Positions 10,828 through 62,470 of a DNA stretch of 64,000 nt are shown one piece after another. A program made the position numbers and the translations under genes. Position 1 is the stretch's first letter; each line of letters begins with the position of its first letter. Source of the stretch: Psychrobacter sp. BI730 (GTDB taxonomy: Bacteria; Pseudomonadota; Gammaproteobacteria; Pseudomonadales; Moraxellaceae). The notes under the pieces were generated by a model, which had not been told where the DNA came from, ran no database searches, and saw nothing but the letters and a program-made list of their open reading frames with translations. Where the stretch lies: NCBI RefSeq assembly GCF_013414195.1, contig NZ_JAATTV010000004.1:62001-126000 (forward strand), read 5' to 3'.

Positions 10828-11362
10828 GACAAAAGTCCTTTTTAAATCTATCAATTAAATCATACGTCTTAGGCATGATCACCACTTCAGAATAGTCTGG
10901 CACCCACTGGTGAATCAAGAAACGATGACCACCATAATCCATTTCACCTTTGGTCAGTCTAGATACGACCCAATTAAGGCGAGGCAGTTTTTCGTTGATT
11001 TGATAACCCAGATAGCCAGGCTTTTGTATAGGAGCGAGCATTTCGGTGGAGGGTGTCCCCGCACCGAACGCTTCAAAATAGGTCGTGGTCAGTAACAGCT
11101 CCGCACCTTCTGTACTGCTGCCGTCTATGCGTTGATACTGCTCTTCCCACCACTGTTTTTCTACAGAATGTATCCAACGTAGCTGAAAGTCAGGCTCCGT
11201 GAAATAGCAGACCTTATCATCAGCACCGTCTACGCCTGCGACTCGCACTTCAACGACAGACTGAAGCGTAGAGCCTAACCATAGCGTAAAAAAAACCAGC
11301 GCTGCAATAAATGCCGCGCCAGTTGATAACCATAATGAATTACTTGGCTGCTTGTTCGTCAT
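10799..11362 (-). CDS. DUF1850 protein of a TAXI TRAP operon
   Basis: 187 residues with one N-terminal membrane segment (roughly residues 12-33) and a periplasmic remainder. Sequences such as FRWxHSVEK-like LRWIHSVEKQWWEEQY and TTTYFEAFGAGTPS are the usual DUF1850 features, found almost only between TAXI binding proteins and fused TRAP permeases. Function is unknown; an accessory or substrate-handling role is inferred from the constant gene order. Its start overlaps the end of the binding-protein gene by 23 bases and its end overlaps the permease gene, so all three are likely translated as a coupled set. Confidence 0.88.
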   Translation of the reverse strand: MTNKQPSNSLWLSTGAAFIAALVFFTLWLGSTLQSVVEVRVAGVDGADDKVCYFTEPDFQLRWIHSVEKQWWEEQYQRIDGSSTEGAELLLTTTYFEAFGAGTPSTEMLAPIQKPGYLGYQINEKLPRLNWVVSRLTKGEMDYGGHRFLIHQWVPDYSEVVIMPKTYDLIDRFKKDFCHELPSDGSR

Positions 11363-12359
11363 AGTACTTTTTAGCTCCAGGATGGATTGGGGCTACCATG
11401 CCATCACGAGCGGTTTCTAGACTGATATCATTGGCCGCTTGGTGAGCTGTTTTTAGACCATCTAAATTATCAAATAATGCTTTGGTTAGTTTATAACCAT
11501 CCGCTTCAGACAGATCAGAGCTAACCAATAGTGCATTCATAATTGCTGCAGTTGGTACGGCTGTTTCGTTGCCATAAGTGCCAGCAGGAATCTCAAAGGT
11601 TTTGAAGTAAGGCTTGGTCGCGATGATTTCTTTTAGCTTGTCTTGATTGATAGTGACAATCTGTAAATCTAAACCTTGCTCTAACTCCATCAAAGATGAG
11701 TTTGGTAGGCCACTACTAAAGAATGCCGCTTCGATCTTACCTGCTTTCATACCATCAGCAGCTTCAGCAAAGCCTAGATAATCAACGGTGACATCATCAT
11801 ATGTGATACCAAACCCTTCAAGTAAAGTACGAGCATTCACTTCTGTACCAGAACCTTGATCGCCTACAGCAATACGCTTGCCTCGTAAATCTTCAATGTT
11901 TTTGATACCAGATTTTTTCGAGGTCACGATTTGCACCACATTAGGGTACAAAACAGCAATCTGCTGAATGTTGGTGATTGGCTGCTCAAAGTTGTTTTTA
12001 CCTTCGACAGCATCCGTCACCACGTCACTTAGTGCCAAGACCATGTCGACCTTGCCTTGGGTTAATAGATTGACGTTTTCAACCGATGCGCCAGTGGTTT
12101 GAGTTTTTGAGTTTACACCAAAAGTTTTGACATAGACTTCAGACAATGAAGTACCAATGATGTTGTAAGGGCCAGATGCACCGCCAGTAGCGATGGTCAA
12201 AAACTTAGTATCAAGCTTATCTGCTGCAGTATCCGTTGCCGCGCTATCTGCAGATGCAGTATCACTGCCCTCTGAGCTTGGAGATGAGCATGCGGTTAGA
12301 CCTAGCGCAGCACTCAACATAGCTGACAAAAGTAATGGGGATTTTAAAGAATTAAGCAT
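11340..12359 (-). CDS. TAXI family TRAP transporter solute-binding lipoprotein
   Basis: 339 residues. The N-terminus is a lipoprotein signal (hydrophobic run ending LGLTAC, lipid Cys about residue 22), then a Ser/Asp/Ala-rich linker. The mature domain starts FLTIATGGASGPYNIIGTSL, the TAXI signature, and continues with GKVDMVLALSDV and GKRIAVGDQGSGTEVNARTLL. It would capture a solute (glutamate or another organic acid in studied relatives) and deliver it to the permease two genes downstream. I chose ATG at 12359: AAGGA lies 8 bases ahead. An ATG three codons earlier abuts the ribosome site, and a longer frame would hide the signal peptide. Confidence 0.92.
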   Translation of the reverse strand: MLNSLKSPLLLSAMLSAALGLTACSSPSSEGSDTASADSAATDTAADKLDTKFLTIATGGASGPYNIIGTSLSEVYVKTFGVNSKTQTTGASVENVNLLTQGKVDMVLALSDVVTDAVEGKNNFEQPITNIQQIAVLYPNVVQIVTSKKSGIKNIEDLRGKRIAVGDQGSGTEVNARTLLEGFGITYDDVTVDYLGFAEAADGMKAGKIEAAFFSSGLPNSSLMELEQGLDLQIVTINQDKLKEIIATKPYFKTFEIPAGTYGNETAVPTAAIMNALLVSSDLSEADGYKLTKALFDNLDGLKTAHQAANDISLETARDGMVAPIHPGAKKYYDEQAAK

Positions 12360-12844
12360 TGAATTCATCCTTGAAGTAATCGGTTTTATACGTTTAACAA
12401 TATCCGTATTTATACATAAATACGTTACAGACGAGTAATAATATAGTAATTCTGTCAATAAATAAACCTTAGCTTACTTTCTATTTTTCTTTCAATACCT
12501 TATATTTAAAGCTATTAGAGAAAATATAGGTCATTCATCAATTGTACTAATATATATATGTATGTTTTGCTATGCGAAACAAAGTTTCATTTAATAAATA
12601 TTAAAACAAAAATTGTCGCTATTGTAAACCTTTATCGATATCTGAAAAATATTGTCATATCGCATTATTTCTTAGGAATCTTTAGATATAGCAAATTAAT
12701 GAGAATTCTCTATTTATAACTATCTCAATTTATAACTATAAGGACAAAAGTTCTGCTATATTTTATCTGAGCTATTTTTTGGTTCAGGATATTACATGGC
12801 ACTAGTCTGTGTCTCTCTTTTATTAACCCATTCGGATAGTCCTT
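12360..12844. other. AT-rich divergent regulatory region
   Basis: About 485 bases with no gene, between the minus-strand TRAP operon and plus-strand mtnP. It includes GAGAATTCTC, a 10-base palindrome at 12701-12710 (slightly Fur-box-like in setting, not convincing), and two copies of TTTATAACTAT about 16 bases apart near 12713-12740. A candidate extended -10 for mtnP is listed separately. Confidence 0.5.
12754..12762 (+). promoter_or_regulatory. Extended -10 promoter candidate for MTA phosphorylase
   Basis: TGCTATATT is a TGn-extended -10 element. It would give a leader of about 75 bases before the ATG at 12845. No clear -35 is present. Confidence 0.45.
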
Positions 12845-13738
12845 ATGACCATACCTCACACGGAAGTACTAGCAACATTATCTGCTGATATTGCTATCAT
12901 CGGTGGCAGCGGTCTCTACCAAATGTCATCACTGACCAACAAACGCAGTGTGACGATACAGACGCCTTATGGCAGTCCATCTGATGATATTGTCTTAGGT
13001 GAGCTTGAGGGAGTGACCGTTGCTTTTTTGACGAGGCATGGTCAGGGACATAGACTGACGCCGTCCGAAGTACCTTATCGAGCCAATATCTATGCGCTAA
13101 AAACGCTTGGGGTACGCTATATCGTCTCCGTATCAGCAGTTGGCTCATTGCAAGCGCATCTTAAGCCATTAGATATGGTCGTGCCTGATCAAATGATTGA
13201 TATGACCAAGCAGCGAGTGAGTACGTTCTTCGGTGAAGGTGCCGTCGCCCATGTGTCGATGGCAGACCCACTATGCCCTGCCCTAGCAGAACTCTTGACG
13301 CGCGCTTATGACAAAGCGGATATTACAGAAGGCACTAGTCACCCACAGGCGACTTATGTCTGTATCGAAGGGCCTCAATTCTCAACTCGGGCAGAGTCAG
13401 AATGGTATCGTCAGATGCAGGCAGATGTTATTGGCATGACCAATATGCCAGAAGCCAAATTGGCACGTGAAGCCAGTATTGCTTATGCCACGTTAGCTCT
13501 GGTGACAGATTTCGACTGTTGGCATCCAACGGAAGAAGCCGTCAGTGCCGACTATGCGATAAAGAACCTAATGAAAAATGCGGACAATGCTCAAAAAGTG
13601 ATACAGAAAGCCGTGGCTTTGATTGCTGCTGAACTACCTGATTCAATCGCCCATAATGCTCTTGCACAAGCATTGGTCACACCTATAGATGCGATGGACG
13701 AACATACCAAGATCAGACTGGCCGCCTTGCTAACGTAA
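12845..13738 (+). CDS. mtnP: S-methyl-5'-thioadenosine phosphorylase
   Basis: 297 residues of the purine phosphorylase PNP/MTAP family. It splits methylthioadenosine, the polyamine-synthesis by-product, into adenine and methylthioribose-1-phosphate. Motifs: IGGSGLYQM (phosphate loop), RHGQGH, YRANIYALKTLGV, VSAVGSL, EGPQFSTRAES and IGMTNMPEAKLAREA. The base-recognition segment TDFDCWH, with two Asp residues as in human MTAP, points to adenine rather than hypoxanthine. A 45-residue C-terminal tail makes it a little longer than the 245-residue methylthioinosine enzymes of Pseudomonas. No other methionine-salvage gene is nearby. Terminator downstream. Confidence 0.88.
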   Translation: MTIPHTEVLATLSADIAIIGGSGLYQMSSLTNKRSVTIQTPYGSPSDDIVLGELEGVTVAFLTRHGQGHRLTPSEVPYRANIYALKTLGVRYIVSVSAVGSLQAHLKPLDMVVPDQMIDMTKQRVSTFFGEGAVAHVSMADPLCPALAELLTRAYDKADITEGTSHPQATYVCIEGPQFSTRAESEWYRQMQADVIGMTNMPEAKLAREASIAYATLALVTDFDCWHPTEEAVSADYAIKNLMKNADNAQKVIQKAVALIAAELPDSIAHNALAQALVTPIDAMDEHTKIRLAALLT

Positions 13739-13814
13739 TCTTGATACTTATTTTCCATCTTAAACTGACTACTGCTAATCGGTCTAATTTTAATCGTGCT
13801 GTTTCCCATTGAAT

Positions 13815-13851
13815 CAAAAAAGGCCATTATCTAAAATAATGGCCTTTTTTA
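13815..13851. terminator. Bidirectional rho-independent terminator
   Basis: AAAAAAGGCCATTAT pairs with ATAATGGCCTTTTTT around a short loop, between mtnP and the convergent arsM. Confidence 0.9.
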
Positions 13852-13899
13852 TAATTAAGCATGTATATTTAAATTTATGCTAAATACACCACTTTAATG

Positions 13900-14943
13900 T
13901 TAGCAACAACCACCTGCACCAGATGCCAGCATCATAGGTTGATTAAATGGCATTAATTCACCGCAACCTGCAAAAATACCGTAGTGGCGACTGTCATCAC
14001 CGATAAACTCAAAATGCGGCGCAAAGCGCGATTCTTGCAGCATTCGAAACGTATTGCCACATACTGGGAATACCCGACCAGCTTCGATAGCATGATGTTT
14101 ATCTAAATCAAACCGATGCGGGGACTGCTCGATAGAGCCTTTATATATCACCGCTTGTCCGTGATCTTCGCAAGCATCCTCAAGCGAGTCGATTTTAAAT
14201 AAGCGGTAAGTTGCAGAGAAAAACTGAATATCACCGATTTTAGCCGCCAAAGCAGGATCTGTAATCTCAAGTGGGCGATCTTCAACCAAACGTATGTCTA
14301 AGAATCCTGCATCTCGTGACAAACGGTTAAAATCCTTCCAATACAATGCGCCGCTCAAACACTCTCCATATAAGACTGGGTCATCGATCAGATGTTGCGG
14401 GATACGGCGATCAGCATAGACATCAGAAAAATAAAACTCTCCACCAGGTTTCAGTAAGCGCTGCACACTGGCCATGACCGCAGCTTTATCTGGTGATAGA
14501 TTGATAACGCAGTTTGAGACGATAATATCAAAGCTATTAGCCTCAAGGTCTAGTTCATCTAGTTTCTCGATATAGCCATGCAAAAATGTCACATTATCAT
14601 AACCAAACTTATCGACATGATAGGCTTGATGCTGTCTGGCCACGGCTAGCTGCTCATCAGTCATATCCACACCGACTACGTGCCCACTCTCGCCCACCAG
14701 TTGCGCTAATGCATAGACATCTCGGCCTGAGCCACTGCCCAAATCTAAAATTCGACAGCCTTCAAGCAGTGCTGGACACACCAGACCACAGCCGTAATAG
14801 CGATTCAATACTTCATCATGAATATTTGCGAGTAATGGCTTGAGCCACTCAGGCATATTGCTGATATCACAACAAGCCGAGGTCTTTAGATCATTGGTAC
14901 CCTGTAACTCTTTTCCATAGTAATTTTGCACGACGTCATGCAT
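13900..14943 (-). CDS. arsM: Arsenite S-adenosylmethionine methyltransferase
   Basis: 347 residues. ArsM methylates arsenite using SAM. The SAM-binding motif DLGSGSGRD is at 67-75. The three catalytic/As-binding cysteines of ArsM enzymes can be placed: Cys52 (YYGCGLV), Cys145 (SNCVINLSP) and Cys195 (YGECLSGALYWKDF). An N-terminal CC pair (24-25) and a C-terminal GAGGCC tail add further thiols. The C-terminal domain (FKIDSLEDACEDHGQAVIYKG) is the usual ArsM extension. It ends a minus-strand cluster with ArsS and two glycosyltransferases, which points to arsenosugar synthesis rather than simple volatilisation. AAGGA precedes the start. Confidence 0.95.
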   Translation of the reverse strand: MHDVVQNYYGKELQGTNDLKTSACCDISNMPEWLKPLLANIHDEVLNRYYGCGLVCPALLEGCRILDLGSGSGRDVYALAQLVGESGHVVGVDMTDEQLAVARQHQAYHVDKFGYDNVTFLHGYIEKLDELDLEANSFDIIVSNCVINLSPDKAAVMASVQRLLKPGGEFYFSDVYADRRIPQHLIDDPVLYGECLSGALYWKDFNRLSRDAGFLDIRLVEDRPLEITDPALAAKIGDIQFFSATYRLFKIDSLEDACEDHGQAVIYKGSIEQSPHRFDLDKHHAIEAGRVFPVCGNTFRMLQESRFAPHFEFIGDDSRHYGIFAGCGELMPFNQPMMLASGAGGCC

Positions 14944-15078
14944 AACAATATCCTTATTGAATGTGCCATCCAGTTAAAATTCTTAGTGAATCATCTTAGA
15001 ATATGCAACTACATTAGTGAGTTTATCAACCTAGTTGTCACTTATCGGTTATCAGTAGTTATCCACTTTGATATTGAG

Positions 15079-15714
15079 TTAAAAGTCTGGCCAGCCTGAC
15101 GGTAAATGCTTTAGATCTTTAGGCTCATCAATATCATGTAAAGGGTCGAATAGTGCCAGTGTCCAGCCTAATGCCGCCATGCGTTGCTTGGTGACAGCAG
15201 CAACACTAGGCGTACTCCAAACAATGTCCGAAAACATGCTGTCATTAACTTGTTTAAATCCTAACAACACATACCCACCATCAGTCGCTGGAAGCATGAC
15301 CGCATCGTGTTGATCTAGCTGCTGTACCGCTGTCTGAATACGTGCTGTCGTAAGACTAGGGCAATCCGTACCAATTAATACAACCTTGTCAAAACGTTGC
15401 AATGCGAGCTGACTGGCTATCAACATACGCAAACCCAAATCACCGTCGGCCTGCGCAGACCAACGTAATGAGTCAGGCAAATCAAGCGCCTGCCAACATG
15501 GATCTATTGGTGCTGGACTCACACATAGCTCAACAGCAAAGCCCGTATCAACGGCATGCTCAATACTATGCAATAATAGTTGCCTTGCCATACGTGCAGC
15601 GCCATCTACCCCTAGCGCTGGCTGCAAACGGGTTTTTGCCTTGTTGCGTGCTGGATATTTTGCAAACAGAATGATGCAGGTATCTTGCTGTCTTGCAGAT
15701 GAATCAGCTGTCAC
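15079..15714 (-). CDS. rSAM-associated glycosyltransferase 1 (TIGR04282/DUF2064-like)
   Basis: 211 residues of the family named rSAM/selenodomain-associated transferase 1. It has a nucleotide-sugar transferase-like fold with ILFAKYPARNKAKTRL at the start (a CofC/MobA-like nucleotide loop), VVLIGTDCPSLTTARI with the Asp-x-x metal site in the middle, and LPATDGGYVLLGF. In arsenosugar clusters this protein is placed in building or modifying the sugar part; biochemistry is not settled. The start codon is GTG with a weak ribosome site. It lies between arsM and the second glycosyltransferase, about 135 bases from arsM. Confidence 0.87.
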   Translation of the reverse strand: MTADSSARQQDTCIILFAKYPARNKAKTRLQPALGVDGAARMARQLLLHSIEHAVDTGFAVELCVSPAPIDPCWQALDLPDSLRWSAQADGDLGLRMLIASQLALQRFDKVVLIGTDCPSLTTARIQTAVQQLDQHDAVMLPATDGGYVLLGFKQVNDSMFSDIVWSTPSVAAVTKQRMAALGWTLALFDPLHDIDEPKDLKHLPSGWPDF

Positions 15715-15798
15715 TATAACGGTCTCTCAATTAGTCAAATGTACAAGGACGAACTCTTTCTTCTGTTGTCTATCATGTTTATAAATCAAACAATCTCA

Positions 15799-16518
15799 CT
15801 ACTTATGGTAGCGTTGCTTTAAAACTTTAGGCGATACACCGCGCCAATAATCAAAGCGTAAATGCCACATCAAGAAAATCGTCCGCCATGTGCCATGCTG
15901 CTGCCAACGCCGCGCTGAGGTCGTGACTTTGCTTTTTAGACAAGCTGGTCGAGAAATTTTCTTTAGCCGTTTACACAGTTCTATATCTTCCATCAGTGGC
16001 TGATCAGGATAGCCACCAATCTGCTCGAACAAAGACTTTTTGATAAATATTGCTTGATCACCAGTGGCTATATCCATTAAGCGCGAGCGTTGATTTATCA
16101 TTAATCCGACGATGTTTAACAATGGCTCATGACTATCTAAACGCACATTAAAACGTCCCCAATCGTACTGAGCTACTGCCTGCTGAACGTTATCTATCGC
16201 GTCAGCTGGCAGCTCGGTATCAGCATGTAAAAATAGCAGTACATCACCTGTTGCCAACATAGCGCCCGCATTCATTTGCTGAGCGCGTCCTATGGTAGAG
16301 TCGATAACATGCCAATCAATGATTGATTGAGCAGTCTCTATACTTTTGAGCATCTCTTTGGCGACAGTAACTGAACCATCCACTGAACCACCATCGACCA
16401 ATATCACTTGCTGCGGTGCCGGAGCGAGACTGACAATCTGAGCCATAAGCTCAGGCAAGTTATCCGCTTCATTTAATATCGGAATGATGATGGAAAGTTT
16501 CAATGGATATACCGTCAC
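15799..16518 (-). CDS. rSAM-associated glycosyltransferase 2 (TIGR04283-like)
   Basis: 239 residues, a GT-A-fold family 2 glycosyltransferase. Motifs: LSIIIPILNEADNLPEL at the N-terminus, VILVDGGSVDGS, the DxD-like LFLHADTELP, and GDQAIFIKKSLFEQIGGYP followed by MEDIELCKRLK. This is the subfamily that travels with the ArsS radical SAM protein. It may transfer a glycosyl unit during arsenosugar assembly (inferred). The start is GTG without a clear Shine-Dalgarno; a TTG five codons later is an alternative. Basic, Trp-rich C-terminal residues could touch the membrane. It is 30 bases downstream of the DUF547 gene, so co-transcription is likely. Confidence 0.88.
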   Translation of the reverse strand: MTVYPLKLSIIIPILNEADNLPELMAQIVSLAPAPQQVILVDGGSVDGSVTVAKEMLKSIETAQSIIDWHVIDSTIGRAQQMNAGAMLATGDVLLFLHADTELPADAIDNVQQAVAQYDWGRFNVRLDSHEPLLNIVGLMINQRSRLMDIATGDQAIFIKKSLFEQIGGYPDQPLMEDIELCKRLKKISRPACLKSKVTTSARRWQQHGTWRTIFLMWHLRFDYWRGVSPKVLKQRYHK

Positions 16519-16548
16519 GTTAATCAGCGAGCAAGATTAAAAACTGGC

Positions 16549-17370
16549 TTATTTTTTATTCAAATTCCAGTTGTAATCGTTATAGCTTATTTTTATCTTG
16601 CCTTGTTTGAGATCCGCTGTCTGAGCTTTACTCAATCCTAGTGACGAGCTATAACGACCTAGAAACCCTGCTAAATCTTTTGTGCCGCGCCAGTTGGTTG
16701 CAAAATCCTCTTTATACCATTTAAAAATTGGTGATACTTTAAGCGTATCGCCTTTGAGACTGTTGCGGCTACTGTCTGCTAAAAACTTAGACGTTGCCTG
16801 CTCTAACTGACTGTCTAAACGCTTGCCAGTAAAGGCATCATCTTGCAGTGCAGGGCAACCAATACTGGCACAATTGACCGCAAAGTGAATGCGCGGATCG
16901 TTGTAGCGTTTAGAACCACGAATCAGGTTATGCTCGATATCATCAAGTGAGCGCGTCTTACCAAGTAGCGAAACAAACTCTTGCTTCCATGGTGACCCAA
17001 ACAGTCCGCCAATATCTTTGATAGATTTGACGTTTGGATATTTCGTCAATACCAAATCTACCGTACCAGCGTTATAAACGTTGATTAAAAATGCCAACTG
17101 CTCATTTTTACTCCAACGATTAAACTCTGATTGAGATACCTTGCTCGTCGCTTCTAGATAGCTTGTCAGCTTACTTTGATCTGCTTTCATACCAGCATAA
17201 TTGACTACTGAAGCTTTGCCACCGTTGGTCATGGTCACATGCTTATTTAATAAGCTATCCCAGCTCTGATGGTTGAAGTCAGCATGAGCAGCCACGCTTG
17301 CTAATAAAATAGTCGTGGCAATCACTGGTTGGGCGAAAAACGTCTTCGCAGCAAAGTTAAATACTGACAT
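16549..17370 (-). CDS. Exported DUF547 protein of the arsenosugar-type cluster
   Basis: 273 residues. The N-terminus carries a cleavable signal (hydrophobic stretch ending VAAHA, cleavage near residue 31), so it is probably periplasmic. The DUF547 core is clear: AFLINVYNAGTVDLVLTKYP, then SLDDIEHNLIRG, DPRIHFAVNCASIGCPALQ and the C-terminal SPIFKWYKEDF. A His in DDIEHNLIR and the Cys pair of NCASIGCP are conserved in the family and resemble a thiol-active site, but no activity is established. GGAG lies 9 bases before the ATG. DUF547 genes recur beside ArsS and these transferases, so a shared pathway is likely. Confidence 0.87.
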   Translation of the reverse strand: MSVFNFAAKTFFAQPVIATTILLASVAAHADFNHQSWDSLLNKHVTMTNGGKASVVNYAGMKADQSKLTSYLEATSKVSQSEFNRWSKNEQLAFLINVYNAGTVDLVLTKYPNVKSIKDIGGLFGSPWKQEFVSLLGKTRSLDDIEHNLIRGSKRYNDPRIHFAVNCASIGCPALQDDAFTGKRLDSQLEQATSKFLADSSRNSLKGDTLKVSPIFKWYKEDFATNWRGTKDLAGFLGRYSSSLGLSKAQTADLKQGKIKISYNDYNWNLNKK

Positions 17371-17424
17371 AGGACTTACTCCGTTTACACTGATTGTTTT
17401 TTACCTAAATTTTTATGTATGCTA

Positions 17425-17514
17425 AAAGCACTTATGTTTAAAGTGCTTAGGCTTAAAGAATCTATGTTTAAAGTGCTTATATTGAAAGTGCTTATATTAA
17501 AATCACTTGCATTA
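17425..17514. repeat. Six degenerate 15-bp tandem repeats behind arsS
   Basis: Units start at 17425, 17440, 17455, 17470, 17485 and 17500, each exactly 15 bases. The commonest form is AAAGTGCTTATATTA; units 4 and 5 differ by one base, while unit 6 is the most divergent. Sub-sequences AGCACTT and AAGTGCT are complementary, so RNA across the array could fold. It fills the gap between arsS and the DUF547 gene. Confidence 0.85.
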
Positions 17515-17520
17515 GAACGG

Positions 17521-18513
17521 CTAAGGCATGTCCACTAGCACTGGCTCTACTGTCTCTTCTTCTAACGCGCCACCACAACTACTGCCTTGTCCTGCTGTAC
17601 AGCCATAACAGTGGTCAGCAATGGCGATGTCATCACCAGAAGGGTTTTGCGTTAACAAATCACTTAGGTGTCGCCGTGACTTGTTGGGGACAGGTATCTC
17701 TAACTGCTGATTGAAATCACAATCAAACAGCTCACCCAACCAGTTGACACTAATGGTCGAACGGCACATGACCTCAGCTAAATTGGCAGCCATATAATTG
17801 GCTTTGAGCAAATCCATATACGGGTGGAACTGGTTTTTTGCCAATAGCACCGCCCCAAAACGCTGAATGGGCATATTTGTTAGGGCAAATAAATGATTAA
17901 ACTCAATATCAAAGTGCGCTTTTAACTCACGCTTATAGTCTGCTTCAAGCTGTTGTTGATTAGGCGGTAGCGTCGCGCCTTGCGGATTGAAAACCAAGTT
18001 TAATGTCAAATCTGAACTAGGCTTGCCATACCCCAACTGATTGAGCTTTTGCAATCCCAATATACTGTCATCAAACGCACCTTTACCCCGCTGCTTATCG
18101 ACATTTTCTAGGGAATAGCAAGGCAAAGAAGCCACCACTTCCACTTGATTGTCTGCTAAAAACTGCGCCATATCCTCATAACCCTCTTCCATCAGAATGG
18201 TCAGATTACAGCGGTCTATTACTTTGACACCTAATGCCCGAGCGGCATTGACCAAATACTTAAAATCCTCATGCATCTCAGGCGCACCGCCCGTCAAATC
18301 AAGCGTATCGATGTTTTGTGCTTGTAATACCTTCGGTATCAGCTCAACCAACTCACGTGACATCATCTCGGTACGATAAGGGCTTGCAGCCACATGACAG
18401 TGCACGCAGGACATATTACATAAGTAGCCCATATTGACTTGCAATATCGTCAATTGACGTCGTTTTATCGCTGGAAAATCAGTATGCTCAAGTAACTCGA
18501 TAGTTGATTTCAT
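17521..18513 (-). CDS. arsS: Arsenosugar biosynthesis radical SAM protein ArsS
   Basis: 330 residues. The radical SAM cluster motif CNMSCVHC has Cys32, Cys36 and Cys39. The C-terminal region, HCYGCTAGQGSSCGG with Cys302, Cys305 and Cys313, is the Cys-rich tail of the ArsS family (radical SAM/Cys-rich domain, TIGR04167-like). Some relatives carry selenocysteine in that tail; here the codon is TGT, plain Cys. ArsS is thought to join the 5'-deoxyadenosyl group to dimethylarsenic, making the arsenosugar precursor. It is the first of the four closely grouped genes arsS, DUF547 and the two transferases, with arsM behind. No strong ribosome site is seen ahead of the ATG. Confidence 0.93.
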   Translation of the reverse strand: MKSTIELLEHTDFPAIKRRQLTILQVNMGYLCNMSCVHCHVAASPYRTEMMSRELVELIPKVLQAQNIDTLDLTGGAPEMHEDFKYLVNAARALGVKVIDRCNLTILMEEGYEDMAQFLADNQVEVVASLPCYSLENVDKQRGKGAFDDSILGLQKLNQLGYGKPSSDLTLNLVFNPQGATLPPNQQQLEADYKRELKAHFDIEFNHLFALTNMPIQRFGAVLLAKNQFHPYMDLLKANYMAANLAEVMCRSTISVNWLGELFDCDFNQQLEIPVPNKSRRHLSDLLTQNPSGDDIAIADHCYGCTAGQGSSCGGALEEETVEPVLVDMP

Positions 18514-18763
18514 GGTGGTCTAAAATCCTGTTAGCAGTACAACTAAAAAAGGATAGCAACGTGACATTAAAGATTAGAAAACACAGATAGCGCATTGCTT
18601 TTACTGTTTATTTATAAGGTTTACAACGTAAAACCTTATTGCTCACTTTACGGTTTATCTAATCAATCATACCTGATTATCAATAAGCATTGACAACTAA
18701 TCATATGGATTTTATGGTTTATTCTAAATGAGCATTAACCTTCGTTAGTTCTTATCAGCTTCG

Positions 18764-19954
18764 TCAATTCTTATTAACTTCGATAAAACGCTTATCGATA
18801 TACTTCTTGAGATGCCATACCCAGCGGCCTTGTAGATTTACATTACCCCAACTACCAATGGCGTATTTATCGCCGCAAGACAGTAGATATAGCGTGCGTG
18901 ATTTTGGCTGATAACTCTTCATTACGCTCTCTTGTAGATAAGCCAACAAATTATCGGCTTCGACAGCACCGCCATGCACTGAGTGAACCCCCGAATGCGC
19001 CACGTATTTATCGATTCGTGTCGCCACATCACCAACCGCAAACACATTAGAATGAGAGACGCTCTGTTGCTTATCGTTTACCGCGACAAACCCATCACCT
19101 TCTATCTCCAAATCCGTAGAAGCCGTCCATGCCGAGCCTATGACGCCAGTCGCAGCGATGACAGCATTTATGGGCAATGATTTATGGGTGGTCGATAATT
19201 TACCGTCACGATAATCGGTCGCTCGTTCTCGAATTATCGTAATGCCATGACGATGTAACTGCTTAATGACCCGTTGTCGAAAGCCTGAATTAAACCCTGA
19301 CAATAGATTCTCACCGCATACTAATGTCACCTGATGATTACGATTGATGTTCCGTAGCGCGACTTGAGCGGCCATCACCAACTCTATTGCCGCAGCGCCT
19401 GCCCCAATAATAGCCAATTGATACCTTTCAGATGACTGGGCATCCTTCAAAATCCGCTGCCATTGGGTGATAAATGTTGATAACGGTCGTATGGCAATCA
19501 CGTCAGTATTAGCATGGGCATTAACAGCGCCAACATCAACATCACTGTCGCTTCTGTGATCATTGTGATTGTATAGCCAACGCATGTCTGTATCTGCGCC
19601 CGTATTTAGAGACAAGACATCGTAGTTAAAAACCGTTTGTTCATCTCCTTTCGTAACCACCTTGTTTGACACTGCATTTACTTGCACAAGTGACTGCTGC
19701 ACGAATCGCACGCCTGCTCGCATACAAAGCGATTTGATATCGATACTGATATCATGCAATTGATAATGCCCTGCCATCCAACCCGGTAACATGCCAGAAT
19801 AGATGGTTTGCGGTTGCTCACTAATTAAGTGAATGTCTGTATCTGTCGTATCGGTATTCTTCAAACGCGCTGTGCTAAGTCGGCGTAACATGCCAATGTG
19901 AGCGTGACCTGCGCCTGCCAATAGTAGTGTCTTTTTCGATGGAAATTTTGTCAT
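18764..19954 (-). CDS. NAD(FAD)-dependent oxidoreductase (TIGR03169-like, SelD-N-terminal type)
   Basis: About 396 residues. The FAD-binding start LLLAGAGHAHIGMLRRLS with the GHAH variant, then SEQPQTIYSGMLPGWMAGHYQL, identify the family found fused ahead of selenide-water dikinase (SelD) in some bacteria. Further motifs: LAIIGAGAAAIELVMA (NAD-binding) and VFAVGDVATR. Here it stands alone with no SelD. It lies 250 bases upstream of arsS on the same strand, so a redox role in the arsenic cluster is plausible but inferred; it could also be an NDH-2- or sulfide-quinone-reductase-like enzyme. ATG at 19954 is preferred to a TTG at 19969. Confidence 0.82.
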   Translation of the reverse strand: MTKFPSKKTLLLAGAGHAHIGMLRRLSTARLKNTDTTDTDIHLISEQPQTIYSGMLPGWMAGHYQLHDISIDIKSLCMRAGVRFVQQSLVQVNAVSNKVVTKGDEQTVFNYDVLSLNTGADTDMRWLYNHNDHRSDSDVDVGAVNAHANTDVIAIRPLSTFITQWQRILKDAQSSERYQLAIIGAGAAAIELVMAAQVALRNINRNHQVTLVCGENLLSGFNSGFRQRVIKQLHRHGITIIRERATDYRDGKLSTTHKSLPINAVIAATGVIGSAWTASTDLEIEGDGFVAVNDKQQSVSHSNVFAVGDVATRIDKYVAHSGVHSVHGGAVEADNLLAYLQESVMKSYQPKSRTLYLLSCGDKYAIGSWGNVNLQGRWVWHLKKYIDKRFIEVNKN

Positions 19955-20322
19955 AGATGATTTTATCAAGGCGGTTGGTTGCTGTTAGTGTTTGATCGAA
20001 TGTTGATTAATATAAATGACTTTAAAAACTCATTTAAAAGTATCATATAAATAAGACCAGTCTGTTGCGGATGAACAGTAAGAGCGTAAATGGCTTATGT
20101 GGTTTATACAGACTCAGCGATAGTCACTGCTTTAACCGTTATTGTTAGAGCGATACCTTGTATAACTGAATTAAAATCATAAAATAAGGTGAAATTATTT
20201 ATCATCGCCCAGTACAATAGGACAGTATAAGAGCCGCAGGATAAATTGCGCTACTTGACTCATTATTTGAGAAATATCGTCAAAACCGTTAATGAAAATT
20301 ATAAGTAATCAAGGAACATTAC
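19955..20322. other. Divergent intergenic region
   Basis: About 370 bases without a gene. It holds the upstream region of the minus-strand arsenic cluster and the promoter of the plus-strand hydrolase. I see no confident ArsR-type operator or sigma-70 promoter. Confidence 0.45.
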
Positions 20323-21279
20323 ATGAGTACCAATATCGATACCAGTAACGATCACATTTTGTCTTCTGACAATATTCACTACTTGCACCATGACTTTTTT
20401 GAACCAAGTAGCAAAGACGTCGAGATTAGCGCAACTTTACTGATTGTGCATGGCATGGCAGAGCACAGCGGTCGCTATAGCGATTTTGCACAGTTTTTGG
20501 CAGACAATGGTATCGCTGTGGCCACTTACGATCATTTGGGTCATGGACAGACTATCAAAACTGAGGCCGATCTCGGATTTTTCGGTGAAGAGCATCCGGT
20601 ACAGTCGCTTTTGAAAGACGTGATTGTGATGGCCGATAGCCTAAAAGATCGTCATCCAGACGTTCCGCATTTTGTGATGGGTCACTCGATGGGCTCATTT
20701 ATCGTGCGTAATGTACTTAAGCATCATGCGCATAATTTCACAGGCGCCATCTTAATGGGTTCCGCAGACGCCAACCCACTGGCTAAGGTTTTGTTACCTA
20801 TTAACAAACTACTGGCCAGAGTCGCCCCACGACAACCGAATACAGTTTTTGCCAAGGTAATGAATAAAGTCCTGAACAGCCAACTATCTGATCGCAATTC
20901 GTCCTCACAGTTTGCCTGGCTGAGTGAAAATACTGCAAACATTGAAGCCTATGAAGCCGATCCTAAGACTGGTTTTGACTTTACCAATAATGGCTTTATG
21001 ACATTGTTTACGCTCATGGATACTGGGCTGAATAAAAATTGGGCTACCACTATCGCCAAAAACTTCCCGATGCTGTTTATTAGCGGTGAAGATGATCCGA
21101 TTGGTGAAATGGGTCGCGGTATACGTAGGGTTGTCACACGTTTGGACAAGCGTCATTTCAGTCATGTCGATATTCAGCTGTATCCTAATATGCGCCATGA
21201 AGTGCTGCACGAAAAGGATAAGCAGACTGTGTATCAAGATATTTTAGAGTGGATAGAGACCAACACGACAGACGATTAA
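20323..21279 (+). CDS. Lysophospholipase / monoacylglycerol lipase-like alpha/beta hydrolase
   Basis: 318 residues of the Hydrolase_4 (serine aminopeptidase S33/lysophospholipase) group. Motifs: LIVHGMAEHSGRYSDFA with the HGMAEH oxyanion segment near residue 44, YDHLGHGQT, and the nucleophile elbow MGHSMGSF with Ser near 128. A late acidic residue lies in SGEDDPIGE and a His in MRHEVLHE. Enzymes of this type release fatty acids from monoacyl lipids. It is cytosolic, as there is no signal peptide. AAGGA precedes the ATG. dapD follows after 220 bases. Confidence 0.87.
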   Translation: MSTNIDTSNDHILSSDNIHYLHHDFFEPSSKDVEISATLLIVHGMAEHSGRYSDFAQFLADNGIAVATYDHLGHGQTIKTEADLGFFGEEHPVQSLLKDVIVMADSLKDRHPDVPHFVMGHSMGSFIVRNVLKHHAHNFTGAILMGSADANPLAKVLLPINKLLARVAPRQPNTVFAKVMNKVLNSQLSDRNSSSQFAWLSENTANIEAYEADPKTGFDFTNNGFMTLFTLMDTGLNKNWATTIAKNFPMLFISGEDDPIGEMGRGIRRVVTRLDKRHFSHVDIQLYPNMRHEVLHEKDKQTVYQDILEWIETNTTDD

Positions 21280-61765: not shown

Positions 61766-62470
61766 ATGCTGACTGTCCTTCTATTAGCTAGTGCCGAAAA
61801 GCTAATTAACATTGCCATTGCTAGTGATGAGATTACCAAAGCAGGTTTAGCGCCGCTTGCAGGTAAGGTGTTACGTCTTAATATGGGACTGCCTGAGATT
61901 CATTTAGACATCCTGTTCACTCATGAGCGTTTACGCTTTGAGCCAGTCACGACGGAGAGCGTATTTGAGCCAAGTGGCCAAATGAATGAGCGCCAAAAAG
62001 CTAGCATGGAGCGCGCACGTTTTGGTCATAGTCGTCCAGATTGTACCATTACCGTAGATAATGCTGCTCAACTGCTCAATTTGATGCGTGGCGCTGAAGG
62101 CAACCTGCCAATTGCTGGTGATTACAAGGTGCTAATGCAGCTCAAACAACTGGTTGCAGGATTTGATCCTGACGTGGCTGGACAGCTTGAACCATTTATT
62201 GGTAAACCAATGGCTAGCCAGTTACACCTTCTTATCTCTCAGCTTAAAGGTAGCTGGCGGCATAGTGCCAAACGTGCTTTTGATGAAGTCAGTGATTGGG
62301 CCAATGAAGTAGCTGGCAATAGCACACCTGATCCTATCGAGGTGGCTGAAGCAAATGATCTGAAACAGCAACTGTTAAAATTACGTGCTGACGTCGAACG
62401 AGAAGAAGCCAAACTTGCTGCTATCAAAGAAGAGCAAGCGCAGTTTCTCAATAACTCGTTTCATCAATAG
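61766..62470 (+). CDS. ubiJ: Ubiquinone biosynthesis accessory factor UbiJ
   Basis: 234 residues. An SCP2-like lipid-binding domain fills the first two-thirds (VLRLNMGLPEIHLDILFTHERLRFEP, then DCTITVDNAAQLLNLMRGAEGNLPIAGDYKVLMQLKQL); a helical region and a coiled coil at about 190-228 close it (LKQQLLKLRADVEREEAKLAAIKEEQ). UbiJ helps the soluble Ubi enzyme complex bind hydrophobic intermediates. It lies between ubiE and ubiB as in other gammaproteobacteria, so identity is well supported by context. AT-rich 118-base gap upstream; modest GAGAG ribosome site. Confidence 0.88.
   Translation: MLTVLLLASAEKLINIAIASDEITKAGLAPLAGKVLRLNMGLPEIHLDILFTHERLRFEPVTTESVFEPSGQMNERQKASMERARFGHSRPDCTITVDNAAQLLNLMRGAEGNLPIAGDYKVLMQLKQLVAGFDPDVAGQLEPFIGKPMASQLHLLISQLKGSWRHSAKRAFDEVSDWANEVAGNSTPDPIEVAEANDLKQQLLKLRADVEREEAKLAAIKEEQAQFLNNSFHQ

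Follow-up and report, generated by a model that had tools for sequence, protein, structure and literature searches.

The gene cluster described here lies on contig NZ_JAATTV010000004.1 of Psychrobacter sp. BI730 (assembly GCF_013414195.1), in a stretch of 64,000 nucleotides (positions 62,001 to 126,000, forward strand) that we call the window. A first-pass annotation of this DNA had read six minus-strand genes, encoding ArsM, two transferases associated with radical S-adenosylmethionine (SAM) enzymes, an exported DUF547 protein, ArsS, and an oxidoreductase, as a full arsenosugar route in a marine or cold-adapted bacterium. Family and Pfam searches recovered all six genes where they had been placed, and the kinship with Psychrobacter fits the suggested habitat. 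Family membership and gene content also bear out an ArsM/ArsS route; the genes listed leave it without a deadenylation step. The border drawn at position 13900 was wrong, as the convergent gene for an S-methyl-5'-thioadenosine phosphorylase (MTAP), which had been omitted, belongs to the unit, and the unit spans approximately 12845 to 19954. We consider it reasonably probable that the locus is a bacterial arsenosugar cluster that includes this MTAP, with a route leading from ArsM through ArsS, MTAP, and TIGR04282 to TIGR04283. MTAP probably supplies the deadenylation step that follows ArsS.

Along this route, ArsM would convert arsenite to dimethylarsenic(III), and ArsS would attach the latter to the 5'-deoxyadenosyl moiety of SAM to form 5'-deoxy-5'-dimethylarsinyl-adenosine, an analogue of methylthioadenosine (MTA) in which dimethylarsenic replaces the methylthio group. 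With phosphate, MTAP would split this compound into adenine and 5-arsenoribose-1-phosphate in the alpha configuration. The TIGR04282 protein would then use a nucleoside triphosphate (NTP) to form nucleoside diphosphate (NDP)-arsenoribose, from which the TIGR04283 protein, an inverting family-2 glycosyltransferase (GT2), would transfer arsenoribose onto a glycerol-type acceptor, yielding a beta-riboside. An alpha sugar-1-phosphate processed through an inverting transferase gives a beta-riboside. Natural arsenosugars are described as beta-D-ribofuranosides (PMC10456119; papers cited by such identifiers were available in part, and statements on them refer to those parts). Accessory roles may fall to the DUF547 protein, perhaps in periplasmic or lipid handling of the product, and to the oxidoreductase, perhaps in redox upkeep of arsenic or of the radical SAM enzyme. 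A more specific version, in which a dedicated MTAP, TIGR04282, and TIGR04283 lead through NDP-arsenoribose to a glycerol or lipid acceptor and DUF547 finishes or releases the product in the periplasm, is tentative, with a little less than an even chance of being right. The chemistry of ArsM and ArsS is already known from the work of others, ArsS being an enzyme that adenosylates arsenic (PMC12159101). For MTAP, TIGR04282, and TIGR04283, the reactions on arsenic substrates are inferred.

Joint inheritance of MTAP and arsS in Psychrobacter

A set of 60 Psychrobacter genomes was divided into 36 with arsS over the family cut-off and 24 without. Intact MTAP was found in 35 of the 36 arsS-positive genomes versus 1 of the 24 arsS-negative ones (Fisher p 2.4e-14, kinship ignored). 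The 36th positive genome, G057, has an MTAP broken in two pieces, and its rpoB also shows stops; among the negatives, G002 has an intact MTAP and G037 a fragment. Kinship was taken into account on a quick rpoB tree of 53 of the 60 genomes (G025, G032, G043, G050, G052, G057, and G059 are left out), on which arsS presence requires 9 changes. With MTAP states coded by hand and the G037 fragment counted as absent, 7 independent pairs could be drawn across starred, well-supported branches; MTAP tracks arsS in 6 to 7 of them and opposes it in 0 (sign test p 0.016 to 0.031).

The genomic site gives a consistent picture. The TRAP gene that flanks the unit was located (E ≤ 1e-60) in 15 of the 24 arsS-negative genomes. 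In five of these (G005, G018, G035, G053, and G056), it directly adjoins the hydrolase gene of the other flank, with no match to MTAP or to any of the six genes. Remains were seen in three others, namely a 71-residue MTAP stub in G037, the oxidoreductase in G050, and MTAP with other cluster genes in G002; the remaining seven had neither the other flank nor a cluster gene within 1.5 kb. From these sites we conclude that the block from MTAP through the oxidoreductase comes and goes. Within the fetched loci of the genus, ArsS, TIGR04283, and TIGR04282 are present in 35 of 35 and MTAP in 34; in the single MTAP-less stretch, that of G032, a contig end cuts the locus, and MTAP lies on a second contig. 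DUF547 (32 of 35), ArsM (21), and the oxidoreductase (20) are more variable, and the window has all of them. The constant core in the genus is thus ArsS, TIGR04283, TIGR04282, and MTAP. Some of the named Psychrobacter loci probably represent genomes that were also sampled without a name, leaving near-copies within the residue row counts given below. At one locus (L126, 13821 to 14294) a small unidentified gene lies between MTAP and the TRAP gene. The G002 stretch (L381, 550 to 12000) is without arsS and arsM and retains MTAP, TIGR04282, TIGR04283, DUF547, a TVP38-MerA protein, and the oxidoreductase; apparent osmolyte ABC transporter genes (assigned by eye) lie between TIGR04282 and TIGR04283, and TIGR04282 is in frame with a TadA-like deaminase.

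One alternative role of MTAP is ordinary methionine salvage; salvage MTAPs are the best family matches of the window protein, whose gene is convergent to the cluster and separated from it by a strong hairpin (15-bp stem, −17.9 kcal/mol, z −4.2, equalled in 0 of 200 shuffles). A search for MtnA, which acts next after MTAP in salvage, returned 0 of the 60 genus genomes, the source genome included, with 8 of 14 controls over the cut-off (other salvage genes were not searched), and because of this result a role in standard methionine salvage is unlikely. Taken with the joint inheritance, the MTAP-free empty sites, and the recurrence of MTAP near arsS in other lineages under other gene orders (see below), it led us to drop the salvage reading, and that MTAP is an ordinary salvage enzyme and a chance neighbor is very improbable indeed.

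A second alternative is that MTAP clears 5'-deoxyadenosine or MTA produced by misfires of ArsS and does not act on a pathway intermediate. ArsS is a radical SAM enzyme, and MTAPs accept 5'-deoxyadenosine. Radical-SAM-like genes (weak off-family matches) were nevertheless found in 23 of the 24 arsS-negative genomes, yet 23 of the 24 lack an intact MTAP. MTA nucleosidase (MTAN), the rival enzyme for MTA, exceeded the cut-off in 0 of the 60 genomes, two of which gave weak partial matches, and in 7 of 14 controls; no arsS-negative genome thus has it above the cut-off, and clean-up is not generally needed. A clean-up role would also leave the removal of adenine without a known enzyme in the genus. 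We therefore regard this alternative as unlikely and retain deadenylation of the ArsS product as the probable role of MTAP.

Signatures and structures of the cluster proteins

The window MTAP carries the base-pocket residues D222, D224, and W226, including the aspartate pair that we take to mark adenine specificity. A close solved relative, RsfP (4glf), aligns with 539.6 bits over 294 residues, and the RsfP paper places 222D and 224D in the pocket (PMC3561333). Of the MTAP rows from arsS-bearing loci, 56 could be scored, and the D-D-W combination was found in every one, as well as in two rows of the arsS-negative genome G002. Another phosphorylase clade of the class, comprising 22 proteins, has N222 in 22, A224 in 21, and G226 in 22; one of its members, typed against NCBIfam, is an S-methyl-5'-thioinosine phosphorylase (MTIP), the inosine type. 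An adenine-type pocket, as read from these residues, fits an adenosine-type substrate. In a tree built from 11 fetched genus loci, the window, the plasmid described below, and others, 23 of 25 cluster MTAPs fall in one clade across Gamma- and Betaproteobacteria (SH-like approximate likelihood ratio test, SH-aLRT, 99; quick tree); one of them, L131, labelled ars-linked, comes from the decayed locus of arsS-negative G002.

Class-wide, TIGR01694 was matched in 128 of 138 arsS-positive versus 66 of 136 arsS-negative genomes, kinship ignored. Typing covered the 30 best-scoring matches from these 194 genomes, that is, the window protein and 29 others, of which 22 belong to the N222 clade and 7 to a long clade; six of the latter are from arsS-positive genomes (G167, G180, G201, G272, G295, and G314) and one from arsS-negative G113. 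As most of the typed proteins are inosine-type and kinship is ignored, we give the class-wide co-occurrence little weight.

Both transferases of the first-pass annotation were identified, as TIGR04282 and TIGR04283 proteins, each well over its curated cut-off. The structural model of the TIGR04282 protein (predicted local distance difference test score, pLDDT, 94.6) has as its top structures 3cgx (Z 25.6 over 202 residues), 2i5e (21.1), 7p97 (20.3), and Rv2983 (18.4), with IspD, GlmU, and TarI at Z 13 to 15, and Foldseek agrees. Whereas 3cgx is labelled simply "putative nucleotide-diphospho-sugar transferase," 7p97 is a 3-phosphoglycerate guanylyltransferase and Rv2983 is presumably FbiD. The fifty rows listed for each PDB comparison are all nucleotidyltransferases or unnamed proteins of the same fold. 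A K-T-R-L motif is near-invariant (R29 in 131 of 131 rows, K in 127, T in 125, and L in 126). By modelled fold and NTP motif, the protein classes with CofC/GlmU-like nucleotidylyltransferases, which suggests that the NCBI name "glycosyltransferase" should read nucleotidyltransferase. NCBIfam names both families glycosyltransferases, and were both to act as such no NDP-arsenosugar would form; with structures of CofC/FbiD, 3-phosphoglycerate guanylyltransferase, IspD, GlmU, and TarI nearest to the TIGR04282 model, and with the K-T-R-L motif, this is highly unlikely. In TIGR04283, the acidic GT2 residues D103, E180, and D181 are present in 137 of 137 rows.

The cysteine motifs described for ArsS were found as C32, C36, and C39 (CxxxCxxC) and C302, C305, and C313 in the C-terminal region, invariant across 15 aligned rows; the TIGR04167 cut-off is exceeded, and the closest named ArsS is that of Psychrobacter sp. 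APC 3281, at 96% identity. Cys52, Cys145, and Cys195, which we take to be the catalytic cysteines of ArsM, are likewise all present in the methyltransferase, together with a Methyltransf_31 domain. The protein nevertheless falls under every ArsM cut-off among the best 25 of 39 families listed (best PRK11873, 177.6 of 263 bits; arsenosugar ArsM NF038099, 102.6 of 400). By sequence it is a divergent ArsM, filed here as ArsM-like. A PADLOC defence scan of DUF547, the oxidoreductase, and ArsM gave as its sole hit MADS mad2 on ArsM residues 59 to 179 (2.9e-24); an anti-phage reading was dropped, as we take the hit to reflect a shared methyltransferase domain.

Table 1. Features of the window cluster and its surroundings.
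Feature	Position	Strand	Evidence and assignment
TAXI TRAP solute-binding protein	11340..12458	-	Outer boundary, outside the unit; matched in 15/24 arsS-negative genomes
Adenine-type MTAP (S-methyl-5'-thioadenosine phosphorylase)	12845..13738	+	TIGR01694, 325.8 bits (cut-off 274.85)
Hairpin with A and T tracts	13816..13850		Likely two-way terminator between convergent ArsM and MTAP genes
ArsM-like arsenite SAM methyltransferase	13900..14943	-	Cys52/145/195; CC at C-terminus
TIGR04282/DUF2064 protein	15079..15714	-	194 bits (cut-off 134); proposed nucleotidylyltransferase forming NDP-arsenoribose
TIGR04283 family-2 glycosyltransferase	15799..16518	-	270.2 bits (cut-off 182); Pfam GT2; proposed arsenoribose transfer
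DUF547 protein	16549..17370	-	Pfam PF04784, 96.4 bits (gathering 27); CASxxCP pair C167/C172
ArsS radical SAM enzyme	17521..18513	-	TIGR04167, 466.9 bits (cut-off 300); expected adenosylation of dimethylarsenic(III)
FAD/NAD(P)H oxidoreductase, TIGR03169/FSP1-like	18764..19954	-	283.6 bits (cut-off 310); alternative TTG start at 19969
Alpha/beta hydrolase	20323..21279	+	Outer boundary, outside the unit; adjoins the TRAP gene in five arsS-negative genomes

Partners of arsS outside the genus

Two samples of arsS loci were surveyed. Named loci were the 80 best of 586 by query similarity, hence not a random draw, and 74 remained after 6 Psychrobacter loci were removed. An even sample of the class was drawn by taking alternate rows from the first 119 of 137 listed matches over the cut-off, giving 60 loci. 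Flanks of 9 kb on both sides were available for 40 of the 60 class loci and for 40 of the 74 named ones, and every linkage count is therefore a minimum.

At least 12 of the 74 named loci have MTAP no more than about 9 kb from arsS, in Microbulbifer, Polaromonas, Hylemonella, Rhodoferax, Caldimonas, Pseudogulbenkiania, and other genera, Betaproteobacteria included. Further neighborhoods of this kind were found on an Acinetobacter portensis plasmid and in the class genomes G167 and G284, where the gene immediately after arsS, in the same orientation, is MTAP (L373 and L360). Placement varies, MTAP being upstream or downstream and on the same or the opposite strand. In an ArsS tree of 159 rows (FastTree, support values not examined; 10 fetched genus loci, ArsS frames of at least 250 residues), the 31 MTAP-linked rows, the genus included, form ten groups, and the changes required are 10 for MTAP, 12 for DUF547, and 17 for the oxidoreductase.

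The expectation that DUF547 and oxidoreductase genes would accompany arsS in related genomes held within the genus (33 of 36 arsS-positive genomes for DUF547, one of them, L113, with a shortened copy, and 21 of 36 for the oxidoreductase) and failed across the class (at least 5 and at least 1 of 60, respectively). Among the named loci the counts are at least 10 and at least 11 of 74. Because DUF547 recurs near arsS in other lineages, as the named loci and the changes on the ArsS tree indicate, it is a repeated partner of arsS and not a general part. The N-terminus of the window protein is signal-like by eye and export is predicted; the cysteine pair of the CASxxCP motif is invariant in 18 rows. 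PDB sequence searches with the single protein and with an 18-row profile gave nothing useful. Foldseek returned no match to its model (pLDDT 88.7) at E ≤ 0.001, and VIA none at Z ≥ 5, which does not imply a novel fold. In Pseudoalteromonas, a pair formed by a TVP38/FAD-oxidoreductase and DUF547 (L036, 5584 to 8557) occurs with no arsS in the stretch, and such a pair therefore has a life outside arsenic; its neighbors encode a TonB receptor, an ABC transporter, a CDP-alcohol phosphatidyltransferase, and a sterol desaturase.

The oxidoreductase had been called SelD-type. It is TIGR03169-like, with a nearly full-length match (residues 15 to 397 of 401) that stays below the cut-off; there is neither a SelD domain nor a fusion to SelD, so that the label misleads, and its relatives are FSP1/AIFM2-type proteins. 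At L118 (9500 to 12767), where ArsM and the oxidoreductase are lacking, an amidohydrolase-like gene (by eye) occupies the oxidoreductase position.

Other neighbors recur in the class sample. Within 9.5 kb of arsS, sterol-desaturase-family genes lie in at least 14 of the 60 loci and TVP38/TMEM64 genes in at least 15 (for example, L316, L321, and L354), in some cases between TIGR04283 and TIGR04282; such neighbors hint that the end product may be a lipid. Genes for PiT-type phosphate transporters are near arsS in at least 6 (L318, L330, L331, L338, L352, and L359), and on the Acinetobacter plasmid such a gene separates ArsM from mtnP (L035, 14250 to 15362).

Several observations weigh against the proposed route. 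In Psychrobacter, MTAP and arsS are adjacent, so that joint deletion is possible with no functional tie; the window MTAP is convergent and does not share a transcript with the other genes; and G002 keeps MTAP, TIGR04282, and TIGR04283 without arsS. In the even class sample, MTAP was found beside arsS in only 1 of 60 loci (a lower bound), so that a different route may operate in these lineages. In the named loci, MTAP does not outnumber the oxidoreductase or DUF547 (all three counts being lower bounds), and four of the MTAPs sit 8 to 9 kb from arsS. Neither TIGR04282 nor TIGR04283 was found in the available stretch of the G167 and G284 loci, and the MTAP tree, built by a quick method, carries a long-branch warning. 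Finally, 13 of the 36 arsS-positive genomes yielded no ArsM in searches with both the window protein and the PRK11873 model; the second search detected both ArsM-bearing control genomes, and two of the 13, G057 and G059, are 85 to 86% complete. The options left for these 13 genomes are uptake of methylated arsenic from outside and some other activity. The same gap would be expected if the Psychrobacter cluster made a product other than an arsenosugar or used external dimethylarsenic, which we judge distinctly unlikely, as the occurrence of ArsM in 23 of the 36 arsS-positive versus 0 of the 24 arsS-negative genomes ties the locus to arsenic.

Comparison with known systems

Arsenosugars in general are the major water-soluble arsenic of marine algae (PMC11009773) and reach people by passing along the food chain (PMC10456119). 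In the accessible portions of the open-licence literature, genes are assigned to methylation and adenosylation only and none to deadenylation, and no reaction past ArsS was found tested on arsenic compounds in the part examined. Among the open-licence titles and beginnings of abstracts listed, none linked a phosphorylase or nucleotidyltransferase to the synthesis of arsenosugars, a body of text that mostly excludes subscription journals, where such a link may have been published. Human purine nucleoside phosphorylase (PNP) and arsenic metabolism are treated in PMC1257606. The locus names candidate enzymes for three steps after adenosylation and predicts their intermediates. If the route is true, an arsenic-bearing NDP-sugar would exist, and one gene set would take the ArsS product to a beta-riboside. 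Genomes with an arsS cluster and no detected ArsM may depend on methylated arsenic that other organisms produce.

The closest counterpart of the whole cluster is on the Acinetobacter portensis plasmid NZ_CP096121, which, like the window, carries arsS, DUF547, TIGR04283, TIGR04282, an ArsM-like methyltransferase, and a convergent mtnP. Unlike the window, it has a TVP38-MerA-like oxidoreductase in place of the TIGR03169 type and a phosphate transporter gene between the methyltransferase and mtnP, and it is plasmid-borne. Among plasmid records, none matches as much as 80% of the window cluster at a single place; 8 match it in part. RsfP (4glf/4glj), an MTAP from an Antarctic soil metagenome, is very close to the window MTAP. 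It was studied as a rhodamine B binder, with the dye in the substrate pocket and enzyme activity left for later, and the paper's main text holds no word beginning with "arsen" (PMC3561333). With the present locus, this crystallized orphan phosphorylase gains a likely function.

The arsinothricin cluster arsQML resembles the window in combining ArsM with a radical SAM enzyme that makes a C-As bond (PMC8552651). Its radical SAM enzyme transfers 3-amino-3-carboxypropyl (PMC12159101), and the product is an amino acid, whereas the window ArsS would adenosylate; the available part of the arsQML description mentions neither MTAP nor transferases of the TIGR04282 or TIGR04283 kind (PMC8552651).

The arsM-arsS arsenosugar pathway of Synechocystis is said to have been described by Xue in 2019 and Cheng in 2021. 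As far as it can be followed through papers that cite it (for Cheng, PMC12159101), it comprises ArsM and the radical SAM enzyme ArsS, and arsenic adenosylation is common to it and to the window cluster. Set against that pathway as cited, the window cluster carries TIGR04282, TIGR04283, DUF547, the oxidoreductase, and an adenine-type MTAP, and because these are present the later steps can be assigned to candidate genes within the cluster.

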